Assembly (NCBI GenBank): GCA_013289695.1 | Contig: JABCZK010000002.1 | Coordinates: 124,001-188,000 of the forward strand | Source: Acidobacteriota bacterium | Lineage (GTDB): Bacteria > Acidobacteriota > Terriglobia > Acidiferrales > UBA7541 | Direction: 5' to 3' | DNA length: 64,000 bases | Shown: positions 33,437 to 46,136 of the stretch, one piece after another | How positions within the stretch are numbered: position 1 is the stretch's first letter | How the letters are laid out: each line of letters opens with the position of its first letter | Notes under the pieces: generated by a model | The model's database searches: none | The model's input: only the letters and a program-made list of their open reading frames with translations | Told to the model about the DNA's origin: nothing | Made by a program: the position numbers and the translations under genes

Positions 33437-33754
33437 ATGACCAGCATAAATGGCCAGTCGCCCATGACTTCAATGATTTCCAGCGCGCGAATCCCCATGG
33501 TGGGCGCGACGTTGCTGATCCTGCTGGGCATCGTCTTCCAGCTGGGCGAACTCGGCTATGGCCATCTTCGCCTAGACAACCTCTGGCTCTTTTCCATGAT
33601 GCTCGGCGACATTTGGAATATCCTCTCCATGCGCCTGAATCTCCCCAATGCGGGAGAGGTGCTGCGCTACTGGCCCTTGATCCTCGTGGGTCTGGGACTC
33701 GCAATCTTGCTAGCGACACAGGAAAATCGCTTCTCCGCATCCCGGAGGGGTTAA
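33437..33754 (+). CDS. Small membrane protein, LiaI/LiaF-like transmembrane type
   Basis: Protein of 105 residues with two hydrophobic segments: about 17-38 (VGATLLILLGIVFQLGELGY) and 75-92 (YWPLILVGLGLAILLA). The second is the WPL-type helix common in the small membrane part of LiaI/LiaF-like proteins. ATG 33437 has GGAG eight bases upstream; the ATG at 33401 has none. It is 5 bases before the LiaF-like gene, so it is likely a partner in the same operon. No enzyme motif is present. Confidence 0.7.
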   Translation: MTSINGQSPMTSMISSARIPMVGATLLILLGIVFQLGELGYGHLRLDNLWLFSMMLGDIWNILSMRLNLPNAGEVLRYWPLILVGLGLAILLATQENRFSASRRG

Positions 33755-33759
33755 CAATC

Positions 33760-34512
33760 ATGGGAAGCAACCGCTCATACAGTTGGAGCTTCATCTTCGG
33801 CGCGCTGATCGTCGCCGCCGGAGTGGTGCTCCTGCTCGATCAACAAGGACTCATCAACGCTGACCGCGTCTTCAGCTATTTCTGGCCGGTGGTTCTGATC
33901 GCCGCCGGCTCGACGATGCTGATTAATGGCCGCGGCTGCGGCGGACGAGGCGTGTGGGGCATCACTCTGCTAGCGATCGGAGTGCTCCTGGTTCTGGAAA
34001 ATCTCGGCTTCGCACACATCCGCTTTGACACGATCTGGCCCCTCATAATCATCGGCGGCGGAGTCTTGATGATCTGGCGGGCCGCCAGCCCGCGTACCCG
34101 TCCCGATGGCACAACCGGTTCTCAGTGGCCAGAGTTTTTCAATAGCTGGGCCCGCACCGGTTCCCCGGACGCCGATTTCAACGGCGTCGCAATTCTCGGC
34201 GGCTTCAAACGCCGCATTACCAGCAAGAAATTCAAAGGCGGCAGCGTCTTGTCCGTGATGGGCGGCTTTCAAATTGACCTGCGCCAAGCGGACATGGAAG
34301 GTGATTCGGCCACCATCGAAGCCATGTCCTTCATGGGTGGCGGCGAAATCAAAGTTCCGGACGAGTGGCTGGTTTCCATGGAGGGTATCAGCCTGTTCGG
34401 CGCCTTCGTGGACGAAACCGATCAGCAACCGCCCAGCGTCAGCGGCACGCAACAAAAACGACTGATTATGAAAGGTGCCAGCCTGTTCGGCGGCATCGTC
34501 GTAAAGAACTAA
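33760..34512 (+). CDS. LiaF-like membrane protein
   Basis: Protein of 250 residues. The first 110 residues have four short helices in the pattern of the LiaI-LiaF-like transmembrane domain (for example FSYFWPVVLIAAGSTMLING and DTIWPLIIIGGGVLMIWRA). From about residue 140 follows the beta-helix-like cell-wall-active antibiotics response domain, with repeated short units: NGVAILGGFKRR, SVLSVMGGFQIDLRQ, ATIEAMSFMGGGEIKVP, ISLFGAFVDE and ASLFGGIVVKN. In Bacillus LiaF restrains a two-component system that senses envelope damage. Here the next two genes are a sensor kinase and regulator of another type (LytS/LytTR), so a similar control role is likely. GGAGGGG lies upstream of the ATG. Confidence 0.85.
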   Translation: MGSNRSYSWSFIFGALIVAAGVVLLLDQQGLINADRVFSYFWPVVLIAAGSTMLINGRGCGGRGVWGITLLAIGVLLVLENLGFAHIRFDTIWPLIIIGGGVLMIWRAASPRTRPDGTTGSQWPEFFNSWARTGSPDADFNGVAILGGFKRRITSKKFKGGSVLSVMGGFQIDLRQADMEGDSATIEAMSFMGGGEIKVPDEWLVSMEGISLFGAFVDETDQQPPSVSGTQQKRLIMKGASLFGGIVVKN

Positions 34513-34521
34513 AGCGCAATC

Positions 34522-35592
34522 ATGCATCCCATACTCAGCCAATTCCGCCGCGTCTTAATTTACCTCCTCGCGTGGATTCCCATCGCCGGCCTGCTCGCCT
34601 ATCTCCTCACCGTCTCTCACGAATTAAGCGATCACGAAGCAATCGTCCTTTCCGTGCCGCTCTGCCTTCTGTACGCGTTTCTTTGCCTCACTTCCTGGTA
34701 TTCCTGCCGCGGTAACCCGCTGGAAAAATATAGCCTCGGCCGCTTGATTGCCACGCACCTAACCGCGGCGCTCGTCGCCGCTATCATCTGGGCCGTTGCG
34801 GCCGAGAGCCTCGCCAGCACGCTCTCCAAGATGCAATCCTTTCCAGGCCTGAGCCACCGTTTCCGGCCGGAAGTTCCGCTGGTGATCGTCACCGGCCTGC
34901 TGCTTTATCTGCTCTGGGTAACCTTGTATTACGTGATAATTGCAGTCGAAGCCTCGCGTGACGCGGAAGCCCGTGTGATGAAAGCCAGCGTCCTCGCACG
35001 CGATGCCGAACTGCGCGCGTTGAAAGCTCAAGTCAATCCGCACTTCCTCTTCAACAGTTTGAATTCCATCAGCGCGCTCACCAGTTCCGACGCATCCAAG
35101 GCGCGGGAAATGTGTATCCTGCTCGGTGATTTCTTGCGACGCACTCTGGGCCTGGGAGAAAAAGCCGCGATTCCGCTGGAAGAAGAGCTCTCTCTCATCC
35201 GCGCCTTCCTCGCCGTCGAAAAAGTCCGCTTCGGCGCGCGCATCCACATGGAAGAAAATATTGACCAAACCGCTCTGCACGTTCCGGTGCCGCCTCTTCT
35301 GTTGCAACCGCTCGTCGAAAACGCCGTCGTGCACGGCATCGCCAACCTCGTCGAAGGCGGCTGGATCCGTCTGGACGTCCACTCGCAAAACGGCGACCTG
35401 ACCATCACGGTCGAAAACAGTTTCGATCCCGATGCTCCGCCGCGGCGCAAAAGCGGCGTCGGCCTGGTGAACGTCCGCCAGCGTTTGCAGGCGCGCTACG
35501 GCAATCAAGCCAGCTTCGCCGTAAAAACCGAAGGTGATCGTTACCGCGTGGCCCTGACTCTGCCCACGGAAAGCGAGGCGCAACCGGCATGA
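34522..35592 (+). CDS. LytS/YehU-type sensor histidine kinase
   Basis: Membrane histidine kinase of 356 residues. Four helices occupy about residues 8-30, 40-61, 75-98 and 118-142, with almost no extracellular domain, so it probably senses within the membrane or through a partner protein. The His_kinase domain begins at about 160: ALKAQVNPHFLFNSLNSISA with phospho-acceptor His174. The ATPase domain has PPLLLQPLVENAVVHGI and the glycine box KSGVGLVNVRQRL. The stop overlaps the start of the response regulator (ATGA), so they form a pair. The LiaF-like gene 9 bases upstream is the likely partner. Confidence 0.93.
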   Translation: MHPILSQFRRVLIYLLAWIPIAGLLAYLLTVSHELSDHEAIVLSVPLCLLYAFLCLTSWYSCRGNPLEKYSLGRLIATHLTAALVAAIIWAVAAESLASTLSKMQSFPGLSHRFRPEVPLVIVTGLLLYLLWVTLYYVIIAVEASRDAEARVMKASVLARDAELRALKAQVNPHFLFNSLNSISALTSSDASKAREMCILLGDFLRRTLGLGEKAAIPLEEELSLIRAFLAVEKVRFGARIHMEENIDQTALHVPVPPLLLQPLVENAVVHGIANLVEGGWIRLDVHSQNGDLTITVENSFDPDAPPRRKSGVGLVNVRQRLQARYGNQASFAVKTEGDRYRVALTLPTESEAQPA

Positions 35593-36359
35593 CCCGCGCA
35601 GCTGCAGCAAAAATTCGAGCGGTGATTGTGGACGACGAAGAACTCGCTCGCCAGGTCCTGCGCGAATTCATCGCCGCGCACAACGAAATCGAGCTGATCG
35701 CCGAATGTGCCAACGGTTTCGAAGCCGTGAAGATCGTCACCGAGCAGAAGCCCGACCTGATGTTTCTCGACATCCAGATGCCCAAGCTCGATGGCTTCGA
35801 AGTCCTCGAGCTGATTGGCAACGACACCGCCGTCGTCTTCGTCACCGCCTACGACAGCTACGCCATCAAAGCCTTCGAAGTTCATGCAGTCGACTACCTT
35901 CTGAAGCCCTTCGGCGCCGACCGCTTCGAAGCATCGCTGCAACGCGCCAAAGAGCGCCTCGCAGGCAAACTGCCGGAGCAGACGCCGTCCGCGACAGAAT
36001 TAGCCGTCGCCGCTCGCGCGCCCGCGCAATTCCTCGATCGCATTGCGGTCCGCGATGGCACCCGCGTTTGCATCATTCCGCTCGCCAAGCTCGACTACGC
36101 CGAAGCTCAGGACGATTACGTCGCGCTCGCCGCCGAAGGCAAGAAGCATCTGAAGCAGCAAACCATCTCCAGCCTGGAATCCGCGCTCGACCCCGCGCGC
36201 TTCATGCGCATTCACCGGTCCTACATCGTCAACCTGGAACGAGTAGCTAAGGTCGAGCCCTACGGCAAAGAGAGCCACATCGCCGTCCTCGCCAATGGCA
36301 CCCAGCTTCCAGTAAGCCGCGCAGGCTACGCACGCCTCCGCGCCTTTCTCGACCGCTAA
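35589..36359 (+). CDS. LytTR-type response regulator
   Basis: DNA-binding regulator of 256 residues, partner of the kinase just upstream. The receiver domain (8-125) has acidic pair D15-D16, phospho-acceptor Asp61 in LMFLDIQMPKLDG, and the lysine in YLLKPFG. From about residue 148 the LytTR domain follows: DYAEAQDDYVALAAEGKKHL, FMRIHRSYIVNLERVAKVEP and GTQLPVSRAGYARLRAFL. LytTR regulators bind direct repeats with a beta-fold, often upstream of envelope genes. Its targets are not evident; the operon's own promoter region (33139-33436) is a first place to look. Confidence 0.94.
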   Translation: MTRAAAAKIRAVIVDDEELARQVLREFIAAHNEIELIAECANGFEAVKIVTEQKPDLMFLDIQMPKLDGFEVLELIGNDTAVVFVTAYDSYAIKAFEVHAVDYLLKPFGADRFEASLQRAKERLAGKLPEQTPSATELAVAARAPAQFLDRIAVRDGTRVCIIPLAKLDYAEAQDDYVALAAEGKKHLKQQTISSLESALDPARFMRIHRSYIVNLERVAKVEPYGKESHIAVLANGTQLPVSRAGYARLRAFLDR

Positions 36360-36860: not shown

Positions 36861-37427
36861 ATGGCATCCCCGGCGGACGCAAAAATGCACAATTCAAATT
36901 CCAAGGAAAACGCGGAAGGCGCCAATGTAGACAAGATCCGCGACATCTTATTCGGCTCGCAGATGCGCGATTACGAGAAACGCTTCGTCCGCCTGGAAGA
37001 AACCGTCAGCAAGGCCATCGATACACTGCGCGAGGACATGACCAAACGCCTCGACACTCTGGGCAATTACATCAAGGAAGAAACCGATTCCCTGGGGCAG
37101 CGCATCAAGACCGAAAAGTCCGAGCGCGCTGAAGGACTGAAAGAACTTACGCGCGAAATGAAGGACACCGGAAAGATCGTCGACAAGAAACTCTCGCAAC
37201 TCGAAGACCAGATGTCCGATGGCCACGCCGAGCTGCGCGCCAAGCTGCTTGAGCATTCAAAGTCGGTCTCCGCGGAAATTGATAAGCTGCGCCGCGATTC
37301 CACCGCGGCCCTGAACCGGGAAGTCGAAGTCTTGCGCGATGAAAAAACGGACCGCGCCGGCCTCGCCGACTTGTTTAACGAATTCTCGCTGCGGCTCAAG
37401 AACAAATTCGAGCTGCCCGGAGAGTAG
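36861..37427 (+). CDS. Coiled-coil protein of the GTPase/OmpA module
   Basis: Soluble, highly charged protein of 188 residues, without signal or membrane segment. After a short disordered start it opens with a helix DKIRDILFGSQMRDYEKRF and then forms almost unbroken heptads to the end (LDTLGNYIKEETDSLGQRI, LSQLEDQMSDGHAELRAKLL), so a long coiled coil is expected. The opening helix resembles the start of the next gene's product (AYEELRHLIVAPEQEGI...RLENLE), as if both bind a common partner. AGGAGAGGTAGGA precedes the ATG at 36861. It lies 112 bases before the OmpA gene in the same direction. No function is known to me; a scaffold role is inferred. Confidence 0.75.
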   Translation: MASPADAKMHNSNSKENAEGANVDKIRDILFGSQMRDYEKRFVRLEETVSKAIDTLREDMTKRLDTLGNYIKEETDSLGQRIKTEKSERAEGLKELTREMKDTGKIVDKKLSQLEDQMSDGHAELRAKLLEHSKSVSAEIDKLRRDSTAALNREVEVLRDEKTDRAGLADLFNEFSLRLKNKFELPGE

Positions 37428-37539
37428 CCGAAGAGTGACCGGAAGACTTGCCGGCAGATTCGCCGGCGAGTGCATCGGTAACGCGCGGATTCAGCGAGTT
37501 GCATCCTGAGCCCGCCGGCGAAACCTTCACCCTCCCAAT

Positions 37540-39360
37540 ATGGCCGAGCAAGCGCAACGCCGCGCCTTCGAGGCGCAGGCCCAGGAAAAACCGACGGACA
37601 ACAACCACGCGTACGAAGAGTTGCGCCACTTAATCGTCGCGCCCGAACAGGAAGGCATCGCGTCGATCCAGGATCGCCTCGAAAATCTCGAAAAACGCAC
37701 GGAAGACGTGAGTGTCGTCGTCGCCGAAGCCATTCAGATGCGCCGCGCGAAAGGCGATGACCTCGCTCTGGCCGCTGCTCTCGCCCCCACCATTCAAGAA
37801 ACTCTGCGCGAATCCGTTCGCCGCGATCCTCACGTTCTTGCCGACGCGCTTTTCCCCGTCATGGGTCCTGCCATTCGCAAATCCATCGCGGAAACTCTGC
37901 GCGGCATGCTCGAATCTTTCAACGAAGCTCTCGAGCACAGCCTGTCGTGGCGCGGAATCAAATGGCGCATCGAAGCGTTCCGCACCGGAAAACCGTTCGC
38001 GGAAATTGTTTTGATGCACAGCCTGCTCTATCGCGTCGAGCAGGTTTTCCTGATCCATCGCGAAACCGGGTTGGTCCTGAATCACGTCGTTGCTCCGTCC
38101 GCTCCTGCGCAGGACGCCGACATGGTCGCGGGGCTCCTCTCCGCGATTCAACAGTTTGCGCGCGATTCCTTTCAGCCGGGGAAAACCGAAAACCTCGGCA
38201 ACATGACGTTCGACGAGTTGCAGATTCGCGTCGTCAGCGGTCCGAACGCCGTAATCGCTGCCGCCATTCGCGGCCACGCGCCTGAAGCTTACAACCTGGC
38301 GATGAACGAAACATTGGAAGAGATCCAACGGCATTACAGTTCCGCGCTGGCCCGCTTCGCGGGCGATCCGGGGCCGTTCCGCGCGGCGGAATCTCAGATC
38401 GCGCGCCTGCTCGAAACCCAGTATCGTGAGAAGCCGCCGGAAATGCGCAGACCGCGCGCGGCCATGATCGCGGGAGCCATTGCCGCCGTCCTGCTGCTCG
38501 GTTGGATTGGCTACTCCACGTACTTGCTCATCGAATGGTCGCGATTCCTGTCTGCGATGCGCAAACAGCCCGGCATCGTCGTGGTTTCGTACACCAAAGA
38601 CGGCCGTACGTTTCACATTCAAGGATTCCGTGATCCTCTCTCGGAAGATCCCAAGAAATTGATCGCTCAGGCCGGCCTCGATCCCGATCACGCGGACCTG
38701 CAGCTCGCGCCCTACTATTCGCTCGATGATGCCATCGTGGCCAGGCGTGCCGCGGCGTTGCTGCATCCGCCCACGGGCGTCACGTTCACGGCAAACGACG
38801 GCGAATTAATTCCCGAAGGCGCCGCATCGCAGAATTGGATCGCACAGCTTGAGGAAAAAGCTCCCTGGATTGCCGGCGTCAGCCGCGTGGACGAATCTCA
38901 TTTGCAGAATTCGAACCTCCAGGAACTCAATGCGCTGAAGAACACGCTTGAATCCACTGCGCTGCTATTCCCTCTGGGCCGCGCGGAGCTGGAAGTCGGC
39001 CAGGAAAATAATCTCACCCAAACCGAAAAGAATATCCGCGAACTCGTCGCGCAGGCCGGCTCTCTGCACCAGGCCGTCAGCATCGAACTGGTCGGCCACA
39101 CCGATATTACCGGCGTCGAAGCCGCAAATCTTGCTCTCAGCCGGCAGCGTGCCGACCAAATTCGCGCGGCTCTGTTGCGCAACGGCGTCCGATCCGCCAG
39201 CCTGCTTCCGCGCGGTGTCGGCACTTCCCAGCCTCTGCGCGATGAAGGCACCGAAGAAGGGCGCCGCCTCAATCGCAGCGTCACGTTCAAGATCACTGTT
39301 TCTCCTCTGCCCGCCGCCGGCACAGTCACTGGTGCCTCAGGCGCTGCTCCCTTAAACTGA
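37540..39360 (+). CDS. OmpA-family membrane protein with cytoplasmic roadblock-like domain
   Basis: Protein of 606 residues. Residues 1-305 are cytoplasmic: a helical part with ALFPVMGPAIRKSIAETL (104-120), then about 155-275 a predicted alpha/beta domain with LLYRVEQVFLIHRETGLVLN and DADMVAGLLSAIQQFARDSF. The latter resembles the longin/roadblock folds that bind small GTPases. One helix (307-331) crosses the membrane. The periplasmic part begins with a BON-like stretch (residues about 345-440) and ends in an OmpA-type peptidoglycan-binding domain (about 475-590): VSIELVGHTDITGVEAANLA, LSRQRADQIRAALL, EGRRLNRSV. So it connects the cytoplasm to the cell wall. The Ras-like GTPase gene follows after 13 bases. 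I recall related proteins from cyanobacteria; the fold call is from pattern and needs structure prediction. Confidence 0.82.
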   Translation: MAEQAQRRAFEAQAQEKPTDNNHAYEELRHLIVAPEQEGIASIQDRLENLEKRTEDVSVVVAEAIQMRRAKGDDLALAAALAPTIQETLRESVRRDPHVLADALFPVMGPAIRKSIAETLRGMLESFNEALEHSLSWRGIKWRIEAFRTGKPFAEIVLMHSLLYRVEQVFLIHRETGLVLNHVVAPSAPAQDADMVAGLLSAIQQFARDSFQPGKTENLGNMTFDELQIRVVSGPNAVIAAAIRGHAPEAYNLAMNETLEEIQRHYSSALARFAGDPGPFRAAESQIARLLETQYREKPPEMRRPRAAMIAGAIAAVLLLGWIGYSTYLLIEWSRFLSAMRKQPGIVVVSYTKDGRTFHIQGFRDPLSEDPKKLIAQAGLDPDHADLQLAPYYSLDDAIVARRAAALLHPPTGVTFTANDGELIPEGAASQNWIAQLEEKAPWIAGVSRVDESHLQNSNLQELNALKNTLESTALLFPLGRAELEVGQENNLTQTEKNIRELVAQAGSLHQAVSIELVGHTDITGVEAANLALSRQRADQIRAALLRNGVRSASLLPRGVGTSQPLRDEGTEEGRRLNRSVTFKITVSPLPAAGTVTGASGAAPLN

Positions 39361-39373
39361 GCGAGACATCGGA

Positions 39374-39871
39374 ATGCTCCAGAAGAAAGTCTGCATGCTC
39401 GGTTCCTTCTCCGTCGGAAAATCCAGCCTGGTGCGGCGCTTCGTCGAAAGCATGTTCGACGAGCAGTACCACACGACCATCGGCGTGAAGGTGGATAAAA
39501 AAGTGGTGCATGCCAACGGCGAAGACCTTACGCTGGTGCTCTGGGATATTTACGGCGAAGATGTGTTCCAGAAAATGCGCCTGTCCTACCTGCGCGGTAT
39601 GCATGGCTATCTTCTGGTCGTGGACGGCACGCGCCGCCAAACTCTGGACGATGCGCTGGAATTGAATGAACGTGTTGTGGCCGCAATCGGAAAAGTGCCC
39701 GCGGTGCTGGCCCTGAATAAATATGACCTCACAGATCAGTGGGAAATCGAACCCGCTCAGGAAGCGCAGCTGGCCGCAGCAGGCTGGACGCTCGAGCACA
39801 CCAGCGCCAAAACAGGCGATGCTGTCGAAAACGCTTTCTCGCATCTGGCACAAGCGATGCTAGCAAAATAA
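39374..39871 (+). CDS. Ras-like small GTPase (Rab-like, bacterial)
   Basis: Single-domain GTPase of 165 residues, the size of Ras/Rab. G1: GSFSVGKSS (10-18); G2: Thr35 in TTIGV; G3: WDIYGED (57-63) with Asp58 and Gly61; G4: NKYD (115-118); G5: TSAK (143-146). Position 62, the catalytic Gln61 of Ras, is Glu, so slow intrinsic hydrolysis or need for a partner is expected. There is no lipidation motif at the C terminus (LAQAMLAK). It lies between a roadblock-like membrane protein and a histidine kinase whose ATG follows its stop directly. This recalls MglA with its roadblock partner MglB, but the sequence is closer to Rab than to MglA. Confidence 0.93.
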   Translation: MLQKKVCMLGSFSVGKSSLVRRFVESMFDEQYHTTIGVKVDKKVVHANGEDLTLVLWDIYGEDVFQKMRLSYLRGMHGYLLVVDGTRRQTLDDALELNERVVAAIGKVPAVLALNKYDLTDQWEIEPAQEAQLAAAGWTLEHTSAKTGDAVENAFSHLAQAMLAK

Positions 39872-41959
39872 ATGGCCACGAATTCCATCTTCGAATCATT
39901 CCTCGGCAGCGAAGGTTACGTGCTGTTTGAGTATCTCGGCGATGGCGATTTCCGGCTGATCGGCGACTGGCCTCCATGGTGCGCAAACATTTGGGCCGCA
40001 GTGCCCGGCGGCGGCGGGCCGATACGTTTGATCGACAAATCGACCTTCCTTGAGAATTTCCTCGTTGATGCTGAAGAATTCTGGCGCGCTCTTTCGCCGG
40101 GCTCAGTGAATTCCGGCACTTGGATCGAACGAGGCGCGGATGGCGGCGAAATTCCACTCGAAGCTTCCGCACGCTCGCTCGACGGAAAACGAATTCTGCT
40201 GATTCAAAACCTTTCGGAAACGTTTGGGCAGCGGCAGAAGTGGTTCCAGGCCGCGCGGGATTCCGTTCTCGAACACGAAAAGCTGCTGAAAGAAATTCAG
40301 AAGAAGGAAATTCTGCTGCATTGCATCGTGCACGACCTCACTCAACCGCTCAGCGCCATGAACGGAGTTTTCCATCTCCTCGAACGGGAAAATCTCCCCG
40401 CCGCGCTGCGCAAATACGTAACAGCCGGCGAGCGCGAGTCACAGCGTCAGGAACTGATGATTCGCGGGATCCTGGAAGCTTTTTCCAGCGACCTCGCCGC
40501 GCAGCAAGCGCGTGAAACTACGCTTTCCGAGGCTCCGGACCTGCTCGTCTGCGCCAAGCAAGCGATCGAGGAATTCTCTCCTGCGTTTCGCGAGCGCCAG
40601 ATCCACCTGGCTCTGGGCGCGCACGCTAGCGGTTCGCGCGGCTGGCGCGTGGCCGGTGATGCCTCGCGAATCGATCGCATCTTCGGCAATTTGCTGGAAA
40701 ACGCCATGCGCTACGCGCCGAAGGGAACTTCGGTTACGATTGGTTTGCAGGACCACGATGGATTCGCCTTCGCGTTCGTGGACGATGAAGGTCCAGGCTT
40801 GCCGCCCGATCAGCGCCCCGATCAGCTTTTCGCGCTTTTTTCCAAGGGCAAGACGCAGGCAGGAAAAGCCGGACTCGGACTTTATTTCTGCAAGATCACG
40901 GTAGAGCGTTGGGGCGGCGCCATCGGCGCGGAAACGCGTGAGCGTGGCGGCTCGCGATTCTGGTTTCGCTTGCCGCGCGCGGCGGAAACCGCGGAGAGCA
41001 AAGGAACCGCTGCGGCACGGAGGAAATCCGTGGAGCATCTGGAAAAAGATAAATCACACAAACTCAAGAAGGCCGAAAAATCTCTGCGTATTCTCGTCGC
41101 CGATGATGCCGAACTGAATCGCGACCTGATCATTGAGCTATTAAAGAAGCGCGGGCACTTCGCCGAAGGCGTCGCCGACGGCCGCCAGGCCCTCGCCGCG
41201 CTGGAAAATCACACCTTCGACGTGGTGCTGCTGGACGAAGAAATGCCGATCATGACCGGGCTGCAAGCCACCGCCGCGATTCGGCGGCGCGAAGCCACTA
41301 CCGGAAAACATCAGGTCATCATCGGCATCTCCGGCCATACCACTGAAGACGACGAGCATCGTTTTCGTGAAGCGGGAATGGACTCATCTCTCGCGAAACC
41401 CGTGGATGTGAAGACGCTCTACAAGGCCGTCGAGTCGACGGATCAGTGCTTGCATCCGGCTGCCTCACATTCTCAACATGACGCAGAACCCATCGCAGCG
41501 ACTGCGTCATCCGCGACGCCACGCGCCTCAACGGATTCCGTGGCAAATTCGCCGGGGGTTTCCGAAGACGTCGTCACGCACTTGCGCCGCACGACCGGAG
41601 GAAATGAGAAACTGATTCGTTCGCTCGCCGCCACGTTCTTGGCGGATGCGCCGAAGGCGCTGTCGCGCATCCGCAACGCGGTCGCGAAGAAGAACTCCGC
41701 AGAACTCACGAGCGCCGCTCACCTGCTGAAAGGATCGCTTGCCATTTTTGGCGCCCCGAAAGCCGTCGCTGCGGCGCGCAATCTCGAGGCCCTCGGTCGC
41801 GCGGAGAACCTCCGCGAAGCGCCAGCGGGATTGAGCTCCCTCGAATCCGAATTCGCGCTCCTGCAGCACGAACTTCGCGCGATTCACTCCGCGCCGCCTC
41901 CCACAGTCAAATCGCGGCCCACGCCGCAGGCCACGCGCGAGCGCAAACGCGCACGTTAG
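39872..41959 (+). CDS. Hybrid histidine kinase with receiver and Hpt domains
   Basis: Soluble signalling protein of 695 residues. Residues 1-125 form a PAS-like domain (FEYLGDGDFRLIGDWPPW). A helix leads to the dimerisation domain with His154 in IVHDLTQPLSAMNG. The ATPase domain has LLENAMRYAPKG, VDDEGPGLPP and GKAGLGLYFCK. A linker rich in Lys/Glu precedes a receiver (about 408-525; ADDAELNRDL, LLDEEMPIMTG, SLAKPVD) and a C-terminal Hpt domain with AAHLLKGSLAIFG. So a full phosphorelay sits in one chain. Its ATG touches the GTPase stop, so the two are translated together. No output regulator is next to it. The C-terminal basic tail has no known role. Confidence 0.93.
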   Translation: MATNSIFESFLGSEGYVLFEYLGDGDFRLIGDWPPWCANIWAAVPGGGGPIRLIDKSTFLENFLVDAEEFWRALSPGSVNSGTWIERGADGGEIPLEASARSLDGKRILLIQNLSETFGQRQKWFQAARDSVLEHEKLLKEIQKKEILLHCIVHDLTQPLSAMNGVFHLLERENLPAALRKYVTAGERESQRQELMIRGILEAFSSDLAAQQARETTLSEAPDLLVCAKQAIEEFSPAFRERQIHLALGAHASGSRGWRVAGDASRIDRIFGNLLENAMRYAPKGTSVTIGLQDHDGFAFAFVDDEGPGLPPDQRPDQLFALFSKGKTQAGKAGLGLYFCKITVERWGGAIGAETRERGGSRFWFRLPRAAETAESKGTAAARRKSVEHLEKDKSHKLKKAEKSLRILVADDAELNRDLIIELLKKRGHFAEGVADGRQALAALENHTFDVVLLDEEMPIMTGLQATAAIRRREATTGKHQVIIGISGHTTEDDEHRFREAGMDSSLAKPVDVKTLYKAVESTDQCLHPAASHSQHDAEPIAATASSATPRASTDSVANSPGVSEDVVTHLRRTTGGNEKLIRSLAATFLADAPKALSRIRNAVAKKNSAELTSAAHLLKGSLAIFGAPKAVAAARNLEALGRAENLREAPAGLSSLESEFALLQHELRAIHSAPPPTVKSRPTPQATRERKRAR

Positions 41960-42090
41960 GCGCTCGATTCTGATGCAACGCTCACCGCATCGAGACCTCC
42001 GCTCGCCAGATATGACTGTGGCTGACTAAACAAGCAACCGCTTCGCGCCCACGCTTGCCGCTCGCGTGCCCCGGCGCGATACTCGAACGC

Positions 42091-43059
42091 ATGAACCGAA
42101 GGATCGCATCCGTCGCCGGCCTCGCCGCGCTGACCTTTCTGCTGCTCGCTGCATCAGCGCGCGCCGACGAGATCAAACTCAAGGACGGCTCGAAGATTAA
42201 CGGCACCATCGTCGGCTTCGAGGATAATTCCTTCAAGGTGAAGACCAGCTACGGATTCGCCGTGGTGCAGAAGGACCAGGTCGTTTCCATCACAGTCACA
42301 GGTGAGGCGAAGCAACCGGAGCCTGCGGCGGCCAAAACTCATGTCGCCGCGCCTGCGCCGGCAACGGCGAAACCAGAAAAGGTCGAGCACGCTTCCGCGC
42401 CGCTCGGCAAAACTCCGGCGTCGGAATCTGCACCTTCGGCCAACCATTCCGCCGTCGAATATCCGCACGCGAACACGCCGAGTTCTTCATCGAACAATTC
42501 GACGCAGCCTGCGTCCGGCGCGTTGAATGCATCGAACGCATCAGCTCCCGTCGCAACCCCGGCGCCGCCGCCGAAACCCGCTGCGCCTGAACCGATGCGC
42601 GAAGAAGTGAGCGGCAACCTCTATACGAACGATACGTACGGTTTTCAGATGTACAAACCGCCGACGTGGAAACTGATCGAAGGCGCGCGCACGATTTTGC
42701 CAGGATCAATCACAGCACTCGGAACGGACGATCAGAACACTTATCTTTTAATCGGGCAGGAACCCAGCGGCAAATCGCTGGCGAACGATATCGCCACGAC
42801 GGAACAGCGCCTGCACGAAGTGATGGAAAACTTCCGTCCGCTGGGCGAGAAGCAAGTGATGATTTCAGGCGTCTCCGCTACCGAGCGGCGTTTTCGCGGC
42901 AGCGTGGACGCGCGCGATTGGTCCGGCATCGTGGTTTACATTCCGCGCGGCGCGCGCGTGTACACGATTTTCGGGATGACCCTGGCGGATACTGATTTGG
43001 TGCAGATTCAGGAGAACGTGATTTCCCGCGCCATCACCAGCCTGCAATTCACCAAATAA
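42091..43059 (+). CDS. Secreted protein with Sm-like N-terminal and PsbP-like C-terminal region
   Basis: Protein of 322 residues with a signal peptide (MNRRIASVAGLAALTFLLLA, cleavage after ARA). Residues about 26-70 (DEIKLKDGSKINGTIVGFED) look like a small SH3/Sm-type barrel seen in many exported acidobacterial and planctomycete proteins. Residues 75-165 are low-complexity Ala/Pro/Ser/Asn. The C-terminal 150 residues start NDTYGFQMYKPPTWKLIEG, a pattern of PsbP/DcrB-like domains. ATG 42091 was chosen over 42055 because it begins the signal peptide. Function is unknown; it may belong to the same envelope region as the GTPase module, but 131 bases separate them. Confidence 0.72.
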   Translation: MNRRIASVAGLAALTFLLLAASARADEIKLKDGSKINGTIVGFEDNSFKVKTSYGFAVVQKDQVVSITVTGEAKQPEPAAAKTHVAAPAPATAKPEKVEHASAPLGKTPASESAPSANHSAVEYPHANTPSSSSNNSTQPASGALNASNASAPVATPAPPPKPAAPEPMREEVSGNLYTNDTYGFQMYKPPTWKLIEGARTILPGSITALGTDDQNTYLLIGQEPSGKSLANDIATTEQRLHEVMENFRPLGEKQVMISGVSATERRFRGSVDARDWSGIVVYIPRGARVYTIFGMTLADTDLVQIQENVISRAITSLQFTK

Positions 43060-43142: not shown

Positions 43143-44561
43143 TCAGAATTTTGTGACTTCGCTGAAATGGAAATTGTTGATTTTCATCGCCGGAACTACC
43201 ATTTCGAAGGATTCTTCGCCGGCGGAGCGCACGGCGGGGCCTAGCATCTCGACGTTGGCGAGCGCTTCGATGACGCTTTGATTGAAGCGGAAATTGCGAA
43301 TGCCGCCCGCGACGCGGCCATTTTCCACCAGGAACGTGCCGTCGCGGGTCATGCCCGTCAAAACTTTTTCGTAGGGATCCACTTCGCGGATGTACCAGAG
43401 GCGCGTGACCAGGATTCCGCGCTCCGTGGAGCGAATCATATCGTCCACGGATTTATCGCCGCCGGAAAATACCAGGTTCATCGGCGCTTCGCCGAATTCA
43501 TTCGGTAGTGTGAAGCCGTGGCCGGTGGGTTTGGTTTTCATTTTTTCCGCGGTGGCGCGAGAGTACACCAGATTTTTCGGCACGCCGCGATCCACCAACA
43601 AAACCTTCTGTCGCGGGAGACCTTCACCATCCCACGGCGCGCCGATTTGCAGCGGATGATAGACGTCGTCCCACAGCGTGATGTTGTCGCCGAAAATCTT
43701 TTTGCCCATGCGATCGTTCAGGCAGGAACGCTTGTCGAGGACGCCGGTACCAGCGAAATCGTAGAAAATCGAGCCGACCAGATCGAGCACGGCGGGCGGT
43801 TCCAGAATCGCGGTGTAGCGTCCGGGCGGAAGTTCGCGCGGTTTGCGCGAGCCGGCCGCTTTTTCGCTGGCGCTTTCGAACAGCGCGTCCGGATCAATAT
43901 TCAAAATGTCCGCGGAATTGGCTTTGGCCCAACCCGAAGAATTGTCTTCCAGGATGGTGACGGAAAATTCGGCGCGGGTGTGGTCGTGCCGTGCGACAAG
44001 CCCTCTGGAATTTGCGAGCACATTCTGCACGAAGCCGGTGGTGAAAATCCCGGCGGCAGTCTGGTCGGCGGCATCCGCCATTTTGCAGACGCGCGCCACG
44101 GCGCGGGCGCGATCATGCGGAGTGGCCGCGACCGTGGAGCGATAGAAATTCGAGACCTTTTGATATTTCTGCGGACCGAGCAGCGGAAGCAAGTCGGGAT
44201 TTTCCGGCTGGTTGCGCGCGAGGCTCACGGCGGCGGCGATCACACGGCGGAGGGATTCTTCGTCGGTCTTGTTGGTGGTGGCGCGGGCGGTGCGGCCGTC
44301 CACGACGGCGCGGACGGAGATGCCCAGAGTGTGTTCGGCGACGTTCTGATGGATGGTGTTGTTGGCGAAGCGGGTCAGGGCGTCCACCGTCGCGTCGATT
44401 TCTACTTCCGTTTCGTCGGCGTTGCTCCATTTAATGATGCGGTCGGCTATGCGATCCAGTTCCGACGAGGTGAAGCGCGCGCCGCTGGGATGATTCGAGG
44501 ACTGAGGTGCGGAGGAGTTCCGCGGCTGTTTGGTTGCCGATTTTTTCTTGGCTTTTGCCAT
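43143..44561 (-). CDS. pmbA: PmbA/TldE family metallopeptidase subunit
   Basis: Partner of TldD in a heterodimeric protease that in other bacteria trims unfolded peptides and matures microcins and other modified peptides. 472 residues from ATG 44561 (MAKAKKKS), an Ala/Lys/Ser-rich start. It has VDALTRFANNTIHQNVAEH, the N-terminal signature of the TldD/PmbA family, but no HExxxH metal site, as expected for the non-catalytic TldE partner. It lies 114 bases after tldD on the same strand. The gap holds a palindrome and no third gene. Confidence 0.9.
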   Translation of the reverse strand: MAKAKKKSATKQPRNSSAPQSSNHPSGARFTSSELDRIADRIIKWSNADETEVEIDATVDALTRFANNTIHQNVAEHTLGISVRAVVDGRTARATTNKTDEESLRRVIAAAVSLARNQPENPDLLPLLGPQKYQKVSNFYRSTVAATPHDRARAVARVCKMADAADQTAAGIFTTGFVQNVLANSRGLVARHDHTRAEFSVTILEDNSSGWAKANSADILNIDPDALFESASEKAAGSRKPRELPPGRYTAILEPPAVLDLVGSIFYDFAGTGVLDKRSCLNDRMGKKIFGDNITLWDDVYHPLQIGAPWDGEGLPRQKVLLVDRGVPKNLVYSRATAEKMKTKPTGHGFTLPNEFGEAPMNLVFSGGDKSVDDMIRSTERGILVTRLWYIREVDPYEKVLTGMTRDGTFLVENGRVAGGIRNFRFNQSVIEALANVEMLGPAVRSAGEESFEMVVPAMKINNFHFSEVTKF

Positions 44562-44587
44562 TTTCAGTTCTGCGGCACGCTGCAAGT

Positions 44588-44605
44588 GGCGCACTAAAGT
44601 GCGCC
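44588..44605. repeat. Palindrome in the tldD-pmbA gap
   Basis: Nine-pair perfect palindrome GGCGCACTAAAGTGCGCC followed by GCTACCAAGGCGACTGCAAC, the same kind of flank (GCTAC, ACTGCAA) as at the type B elements. A second weak palindrome, CAGGCAAGATTGCCTG, lies at 44633-44648. Confidence 0.65.
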
Positions 44606-44675
44606 GCTACCAAGGCGACTGCAACTGCGCACAGGCAAGATTGCCTGCCTGCGGCGGGCAGACCTATGCTACCGG

Positions 44676-46136
44676 CTACTTCGCAAACGCTACTCCTACC
44701 TTAATGTTACGGAAACGGGCTGGCGATGCGCCGTGCCCTGTGCCCATGGTTTGCATTGGCTGGCCCTTGCCGCAATTCGGGGTGCCCCAAAGCGTCCAGT
44801 GATCGCGAGAGCATATCGCGTCGCAGCTGTTCCAGAATTCGGTGGTGATGCCGCTGTAACTGGGATTTTTTATCATGCGGCCGAGCTTGCCGCCTTTCAC
44901 TTCCCAGCCGATTTCGGTGGAAAATTGAAAATGATAGCGGCGATCGTCAATGGACCAGGACCGATTGGTCTCCATCAGAATCGCGTCGTCGGTATCGGCG
45001 ATCAGGTCGTCGTATTTCCAGGTGCCGGGGTTGATGCTGATGTTGGTCATGCGAATCATGGGGAGGCGATTCCAGGATTCGGTGCGCATGGTGCCGCCGG
45101 AGCGCGTTTCGCCGATGGCCGAAGCCAGCTCGCGGTTGCTGAGGTATCCGGTGAAGAGACCGTCGGTGATGATGGGCGTGCACTGAGCGGGGACGCCTTC
45201 GTCGTCGTACGCAAACGTGCCGAGACCGGGGCCGTGTTCGAGGCGCGCGTCGGCGACGACGTTAACAATGTCCGAGCCATACTTTAATTTGCGCAGTTTT
45301 TCGATGGTGAGAAAACTCATGCCGGCGAAATTCGCTTCCTGGCCGAGCACGCGGTCGAGTTCGATGGGGTGGCCGATCGATTCGTGAATCTGTAAACCCA
45401 ATTGCGAGCCGCCGAGAATAATTGTAGAGGTGCCTTCGGGACATTGCGCGGCGGAGTGTAGCGCGACGGCTTCTTCCGCGGTGCGCTGGGCATTCCCCGC
45501 CAGATCGAGCGCCTCGACCAATTCGTAACCCTGCAGCGCATGCTGTCCGCCGAAGCTATTCGGATACGAGCGTTTCTGAATTTCGGTGCCCGCGAAACTG
45601 GTGGCCACAATTCCCGCGCCGGAATGCATTTTCACTTGATGAATCACCGCGCCGATGCTGGAAACGAAAAGCTGGTCAATGCGCTTGAAGGACATGGAGC
45701 CTTCGGCAAGCGTGACGCCTTTCACGCGCATCATTTCCTTGTCGGCGGCGAGCAGCACGGCGATCTGGTGCTCGACGGGAATGCGGAAAGGATCCTTCAG
45801 AAATGGATTCTGCCAGGTGTCCACGTGCGGCTTCTCGGGAGCGAGCGCCACATCGGCGCGCTTCGCGAGGGCCGAAGCTTTAGCGATGGCTACTGCTTCG
45901 GCGGCGCAGGCTTGAATGCCTTCGCGCGTGAGTCGGTCGGTGGAGGAGAATCCCCAAGCGCCGCCCGCGATCACGCGGATGCCGATGCCCAGGGTTTCGG
46001 ATTCGACGAGGGTGCCGACTTCGCCGTTCTTGGTGCCAAGTTCGCGCTGGCGGATGTCCATGACGCGCGCGTCGGAATACGTGGCCCCTCGGCGCTTGGC
46101 CGTTTCGATGGCCCAGGAGGCCCAATCTTGCATCAT
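44676..46136 (-). CDS. tldD: TldD family zinc metallopeptidase
   Basis: Catalytic subunit of the TldD/TldE protease, 486 residues. The zinc motif is LQIHESIGHPIELDRVLG: His251 and His256 of HExxxH with the glutamate between, and a third ligand is expected from the C-terminal NSCDAICSRDHWTLWGTPNC region. The substrate chamber threads unfolded peptides. It lies upstream of pmbA as in most genomes. Two ATG codons stand in a row at 46136 and 46133; either could be used. About 150-310 bases upstream lie three direct repeats. Confidence 0.93.
   Translation of the reverse strand: MMQDWASWAIETAKRRGATYSDARVMDIRQRELGTKNGEVGTLVESETLGIGIRVIAGGAWGFSSTDRLTREGIQACAAEAVAIAKASALAKRADVALAPEKPHVDTWQNPFLKDPFRIPVEHQIAVLLAADKEMMRVKGVTLAEGSMSFKRIDQLFVSSIGAVIHQVKMHSGAGIVATSFAGTEIQKRSYPNSFGGQHALQGYELVEALDLAGNAQRTAEEAVALHSAAQCPEGTSTIILGGSQLGLQIHESIGHPIELDRVLGQEANFAGMSFLTIEKLRKLKYGSDIVNVVADARLEHGPGLGTFAYDDEGVPAQCTPIITDGLFTGYLSNRELASAIGETRSGGTMRTESWNRLPMIRMTNISINPGTWKYDDLIADTDDAILMETNRSWSIDDRRYHFQFSTEIGWEVKGGKLGRMIKNPSYSGITTEFWNSCDAICSRDHWTLWGTPNCGKGQPMQTMGTGHGASPARFRNIKVGVAFAK

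Follow-up and report, generated by a model that had tools for sequence, protein, structure and literature searches.

The Four-Gene Locus

We analysed a stretch of 64,000 nucleotides, referred to here as the window, from an Acidobacteriota bacterium (GenBank assembly GCA_013289695.1, contig JABCZK010000002.1, positions 124,001 to 188,000 of the forward strand). The host genome is a draft of 64 contigs, 87% complete, and its closest named relatives are metagenome-assembled genomes of palsa Acidobacteria. Four consecutive genes on the plus strand of the window encode a coiled-coil protein of 188 amino acids (aa) (36861..37427), an OmpA-family membrane protein of 606 aa (37540..39360), a small Ras-superfamily GTPase of 165 aa and of the Group 1 Rup type (39374..39871), and a soluble hybrid histidine kinase of 695 aa (39872..41959). 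By gene content and signature residues, the locus matches the module described for the Group 1 Rup GTPases (PMC4316618, Wuichet & Sogaard-Andersen 2014). The module, seen here in soil Acidobacteria, is real, conserved and already published; relative to the portions of that paper drawn on here, what is new is the addition of a phylum, a wider range of output types and a testable hypothesis about a conserved glutamine.

The open reading frames agree with a first-pass annotation of this DNA, which had described four genes in a row, the last three almost without gaps: the intergenic distances are 112 bp, 13 bp and 0 bp, and the stop codon of the GTPase gene abuts the start of the kinase gene in the sequence TAAATG. 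A scan of the locus for promoters and terminators gave scores no better than those of shuffled sequences. The coiled-coil protein was recognized from its reading frame and from Pfam matches that were all below the cut-off and of coiled-coil type only. In an alignment of 33 rows, it is conserved at its N-terminal end (DKIRDILFG...RF..LE) and its C-terminal end (K.DR..LA..f.E.a.RL).

The OmpA-family protein has a Pfam match to PF00691 at residues 489–579 (E = 1.9e-13), including the motifs VGHTD (518–522) and LSRQRA (533–538), the Asp and Arg of which we take to have a role in peptidoglycan binding. A hydropathy plot showed one transmembrane-like segment at residues ≈307–333, in line with the membrane segment noted earlier for this protein. 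No such segment was found by hydropathy in the coiled-coil protein, the GTPase or the kinase, and the kinase is therefore soluble. Judged from this pattern, the N-terminal half of the OmpA-family protein presumably lies in the cytoplasm, and the stretch following the membrane segment, together with the OmpA domain, would lie in the periplasm.

Distribution and Gene Order

The distribution of the genes was surveyed in 396 Acidobacteriota genomes. Residues 1–300 of the OmpA-family protein matched in 21 genomes, once in each. The GTPase matched in 61 genomes at E ≤ 0.001, with 24 strong matches in 21 genomes (E ≤ 3e-39) set apart by a clear gap from the next match, which reached only 5e-10. The strong GTPase set and the OmpA N-terminal set comprise the identical 21 genomes, a result that would be obtained by random draw with a probability of 2e-35 if shared descent is ignored. 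Clustering with the OmpA gene was seen for 21 of the 24 strong GTPase matches, two of these being in tandem in a single genome (G159). In the genus of the host, the OmpA-family protein is present in 8 of 20 genomes, host genome included, and in one of them it is cut by a contig end. Four plasmid records contain the GTPase, and all four also match the N-terminal part of the OmpA-family protein; the other 56 of the 60 plasmid OmpA-protein matches listed (82 in total) match only from residue 448 on. Viral contigs were scanned with the GTPase and with the domain alignment of the OmpA-family protein described below, and no relatives were found.

Thirty-three loci, chosen by their match to the OmpA-family protein, were fetched: 30 from Acidobacteriota, two from Rhizobiales plasmids and one from a Nostoc plasmid (L047). 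In 30 of them, the genes for the coiled-coil protein, the OmpA-family protein and the GTPase are contiguous and follow one another in that sequence. The exceptions are L043, in which the order is changed, L044, which meets a contig end, and L070, for which the GTPase is located on another contig. Pairwise distances within the three families are correlated over 32 rows (r = 0.854, 0.870 and 0.793), compared with a maximum of 0.569 in 500 label shuffles. Chance does not explain the arrangement, since the order is kept in nearly all loci and the OmpA gene shares a cluster with most of the strong GTPase matches. The conserved module of OmpA-family protein, GTPase and kinase that had been proposed from the window alone is thus borne out by the neighbourhood survey, in which the genes are not rarely found together and the same 21 of 396 genomes are involved.

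The GTPase

The GTPase matches the Ras family (PF00071, E = 9.2e-31), and the solved structures closest to it by sequence are Rab GTPases, with Rab-23 the best (E = 3.1e-24), as expected from the Rab-like character assigned to it at first pass. The host genome contains one GTPase of this type. Its motifs are GSFSVGKSS (G1), TTIGV (G2), WDIYGE (G3), NKYD (G4) and SAK (G5), of which G1, G2, G4 and G5 are intact. The G3 motif has the form WDxxG, with Asp in all 33 aligned GTPases (Asp58 in the window). The position following DxxG, where the catalytic Gln would stand, is occupied by Glu62 in the window protein and by Glu in 27, Lys in three, and Ser, His and Gln in one each of the 33 rows.

The Output Protein and the Conserved Gln

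The kinase gene, taken as the output gene of the locus, encodes a predicted PAS-like region (residues ≈10–115), a helix containing Gln126, a HisKA domain (His154), a HATPase_c domain (262–370), a receiver (407–521, Asp455) and an Hpt domain (585–666, His617). The phosphorylation sites were assigned from motifs; the HisKA, HATPase_c, receiver and Hpt domains were found by Pfam, the last two in agreement with the first-pass annotation. No PAS match was found by Pfam in the window kinase. An AlphaFold model of the N-terminus had a mean predicted local distance difference test (pLDDT) score of 76 and a predicted template modelling score of 0.63. Of 1300 Foldseek matches to this model, the 50 best were LOV, HIF/ARNT/AHR, FixL, DosP and similar chains, all of which we take, from their titles and from general knowledge, to be PAS proteins. 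Only one of the 1300 matches reached E ≤ 0.001 (7yx0, 4.4e-4), and the query TM-scores ranged from 0.33 to 0.44 among the matches listed. The model thus predicts a PAS fold for residues ≈10–115.

Gln126 lies in the helix after the PAS-like region. Together with one Leu, it has the highest column identity in the first 230 residues (32 of 35 rows), and Gln is present in this column in 35 of 38 output rows, which include close relatives. (L035 was left out of the output alignments, and for L085 only the section of the output that follows the GTPase was used.) The catalytic type of the output varies between loci while the Gln column is kept. By Pfam, the outputs include histidine kinases, GGDEF proteins (L043, L084), class III cyclases (L045, L046 and an extra gene of L078) and a sigma-54 activator (L069). 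Two outputs (L070, L151) have only a PAS_4 match below the cut-off, and five (L073, L076, L079, L149 and an extra gene of L074) have no domain above it. The outputs of L034–L041 and L044 were outside the Pfam set and were classed as kinases by BLAST.

Three of these loci have further features. The sigma-54 activator (L069:3800-5572) has a Fis-type helix-turn-helix and is a candidate for a direct route from a Rup GTPase to transcription. The class III cyclase at L045:10408-11481 is located on a Mesorhizobium plasmid, where the adjoining GTPase is annotated as “Rab family GTPase”. At L074:8705-11636, tandem Rup GTPase genes are followed by a 175-aa frame that has the Gln and no Pfam match, and then by a kinase.

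The Conserved Domain of the OmpA-Family Protein

The N-terminal half of the OmpA-family protein is conserved, most strongly at residues ≈125–285, in an alignment of this domain (A3) from 32 of the 33 loci (L036 was omitted, being nearly identical to L035). The first-pass annotation had seen a roadblock/longin-like pattern at residues 155–275. If the cytoplasmic domain had such a fold, it could regulate the GTPase as MglB does MglA, which would be compatible with the signalling scheme proposed below and would supply it with a fold and a mechanism. The conserved pattern β-β-α-β-β-α (residues ≈166–270) does fit by eye, and the GTPase of known structure closest to ours, Rab-23, has the longin pair Inturned/Fuzzy as its exchange factor, according to the title of PMC6864590. 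One of the 32 domain members (L084) matched Intu_longin_1 (E = 0.12; residues 73–148, model positions 39–108 of 112). Since nine Pfam families match some member at E ≤ 0.22, this match is at chance level.

The profile comparisons lend no support to a fold of this kind. When the domain alignment was compared with an MglB profile, the probability was 0.2%, and the score was reached by 42 of 100 shuffles in local mode and 37 of 100 in global mode. The MglB profile (A4) consisted of 12 Acidobacteriota MglB-type sequences from 22 roadblock loci, after omission of four with stops and of six of the other 18 that were apparently wrong-strand reads. Comparison with the Ykt6 longin, for which only three sequences were used, gave scores reached by 43 of 100 shuffles (local) and 95 of 100 (global). 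Pfam had no match to residues ≈125–285 of the window protein or to the family consensus, and a profile search of the PDB with the domain alignment retrieved only apolipoprotein A-I (E ≥ 0.84). PDB searches with the domains of L084 and L047 gave nothing of use. An AlphaFold model of residues 1–310, based on an alignment of four close sequences (the window and L031–L033), had a pLDDT of 40, and Chou-Fasman averaging of the secondary structure was too crude to weigh. Thus, a conserved domain is present, while its likeness to MglB is at the level of shuffled sequences and no Pfam or PDB match rises above chance. We regard a roadblock/longin regulator at this position as possible, if doubtful.

Comparison with Known Systems

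According to the portions of PMC4316618 drawn on here, the genes for Group 1 Rup GTPases adjoin a gene for a coiled-coil protein, a gene whose product has a conserved domain, in many cases followed by a transmembrane helix and an OmpA domain, and an output gene. The outputs are typically diguanylate cyclases/phosphodiesterases or histidine kinases with an invariant N-terminal Gln, and the GTPases themselves lack the catalytic Gln, which the authors speculate might be given in trans. The first-pass annotation had taken the module to be undescribed; the four-gene set is the neighbourhood published there. The window has a Ras-superfamily GTPase within the 240-aa limit of the group, with Ras-type G1–G5 motifs, the G3 Asp and Glu62 in place of Gln after DxxG. 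Its neighbours are a coiled-coil protein, a protein consisting of conserved domain, membrane segment and OmpA domain, and an output module with Gln126 in the N-terminal region.

The differences are in host and output. In the same portions of PMC4316618, Group 1 is named for Bacteroidetes, Chloroflexi, Cyanobacteria and gamma-Proteobacteria, with one Sorangium example, and Acidobacteria are named once, for MglA. To the output types named there, the loci examined here add class III cyclases, a sigma-54 activator and proteins in which no domain exceeds the Pfam cut-off. Of the prokaryotic groups, Rup is said to come nearest to eukaryotic Rab, Ran, Ras and Rho, or to resemble them strongly (PMC4915359 and PMC4316618, in the parts drawn on), and no member had been characterized experimentally as of 2014 (PMC4316618, same portions). 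Our literature search, which for the most part covered papers available without subscription, found no later experimental work on Rup GTPases.

MglA/MglB of Myxococcus, previously suggested as the closest known idea, likewise ties a small Ras-type GTPase to two-component signalling. It is a less apt comparison, because the window GTPase has the Ras-type G3 Asp found in Rup, whereas the conserved Asp is absent from MglA-type G3 motifs (Thr78, in the published account as far as drawn on here). Furthermore, no Robl_LC7 (PF03259) match was found among the four proteins or in the host genome, at its 87% completeness; the locus therefore does not encode an MglA/MglB pair. The actinobacterial conservon (CvnA–D), to which an analogy is drawn in PMC4316618 (same portions), also pairs a histidine kinase with a small GTPase in one operon. 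It differs in that an MglB homologue is present and the kinase is a membrane protein; in the window, the kinase is soluble, and the OmpA-family protein is the one in the membrane. No MglB-type roadblock protein was found among the four proteins or in the host genome.

Detached GTPase/Output Pairs

Three of the 24 strong GTPase matches lie away from the OmpA gene, in genomes G314, G364 and G124 (loci L149, L150 and L151). In G314 and G364, the detached match is a second strong one; in G124, it is the only one. Each of the three adjoins a Gln-bearing output, and no match to the coiled-coil protein or to the N-terminal part of the OmpA-family protein was found in the 8–10.5 kb fetched around each. 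Given these pairs and the single OmpA match per genome, the GTPase and the output look like the tightest pair of the module, and the receptor could act remotely. The three cases, all from draft genomes, suggest that each genome has a single receptor, from which GTPase/output branches can be detached. Compared with the portions of PMC4316618 used here, the survey thus adds, besides a phylum and further output types, detached pairs, which may point to a design with the receptor as its hub.

A Model for Signalling by the Module

On balance, we think that the locus probably encodes a Group 1 Rup signalling module in which a signal would pass from an envelope receptor to the GTPase and from there to an output that is switched via its PAS/Gln region. 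The OmpA-family protein would be the fixed wall or envelope receptor and, together with the coiled-coil protein, would set the nucleotide state or the location of the GTPase. As the kinase has no transmembrane-like segment, an envelope signal must reach it via another molecule. The loaded GTPase may bind the output encoded next to it at the PAS/Gln region and switch that output, which in this strain would be a phosphorelay from His154 via Asp455 and His617 to a response regulator. Extending the 2014 speculation, the output Gln may complete the active site of the GTPase, in which case the output would be effector and GTPase-activating protein at once. Because the composition of the module is steady, its output swappable and the Gln nearly invariant, the question of whether the output completes the GTPase active site can be asked precisely and tested cheaply.

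Several points weigh against this model. The G3 Gln is present in one of the 33 GTPases (L073). In the output alignment, two loci have Ala in the Gln column (L077 and L082; here the sole kinase found is upstream of the coiled-coil gene, and nothing recognized as an output follows the GTPase), and L043 has Met, with a Gln one residue earlier. Gln126 itself falls in a low-confidence part of the AlphaFold model (block mean pLDDT 52), and we infer that it is the conserved output Gln of PMC4316618. The OmpA gene of G124 (L070) adjoins an output and no GTPase. The distance correlations and the shared presence of the genes also reflect shared descent, and wall binding by the OmpA-family protein is assumed by analogy with its family.

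A bolder form of this model would give the OmpA-family protein a novel longin/roadblock-type GTPase platform on its cytoplasmic side, so that a Ras-like GTPase would be set directly by wall contact. One receptor per genome would feed at least one GTPase/PAS-Gln output pair, each output giving the missing catalytic Gln. We consider this rather unlikely; if true, it would amount to a bacterial pathway of receptor, small GTPase and effector that branches by the same logic as Ras/Rab signalling in eukaryotes.

The direction of flow might also be the reverse. PAS is a common sensor fold, and the window output begins with a predicted PAS domain, so the PAS kinase or cyclase could sense a cytoplasmic signal that the GTPase relays to the OmpA-family protein, which would then act on the envelope, for example as an anchor or organizer of wall-linked structures. 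This is unlikely, since the catalytic domains of the outputs are swappable second-messenger, phosphorelay and transcription modules, as one would expect of the last component in a chain, and three GTPase/output pairs have no local OmpA gene. That four unrelated genes are neighbours by accident has a negligible probability and is refuted by the survey, given the identical genome sets, the conserved order and the distance correlations, whereas ordinary neighbours (the LiaF/LytS/LytTR and downstream genes described below) recur in same-genus loci, weaker matches in L042 and L075 aside.

Flanking Genes

Directly upstream of the module (33613-36359), Pfam identified a LiaF-like membrane protein, a kinase of the His_kinase family (LytS type) and a LytTR response regulator. 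This trio recurs beside the module in L036, and the other LytS-type kinase and LytTR matches in the 33 loci, in L042 and L075, are weaker. Two genes for PmbA/TldD-family metallopeptidases (43143-46136, Pfam) are found on the other side, on the minus strand, and L036, L037 and L044 likewise have such genes close to the module. Both groups were considered as members of the module and rejected, their matches being in same-genus loci apart from the weaker kinase and response-regulator ones. A gene downstream of the kinase (42055-43059) encodes a protein of 334 aa to which no Pfam family matches at E ≤ 0.001; it is found in this position in four loci of the same genus, the window included.

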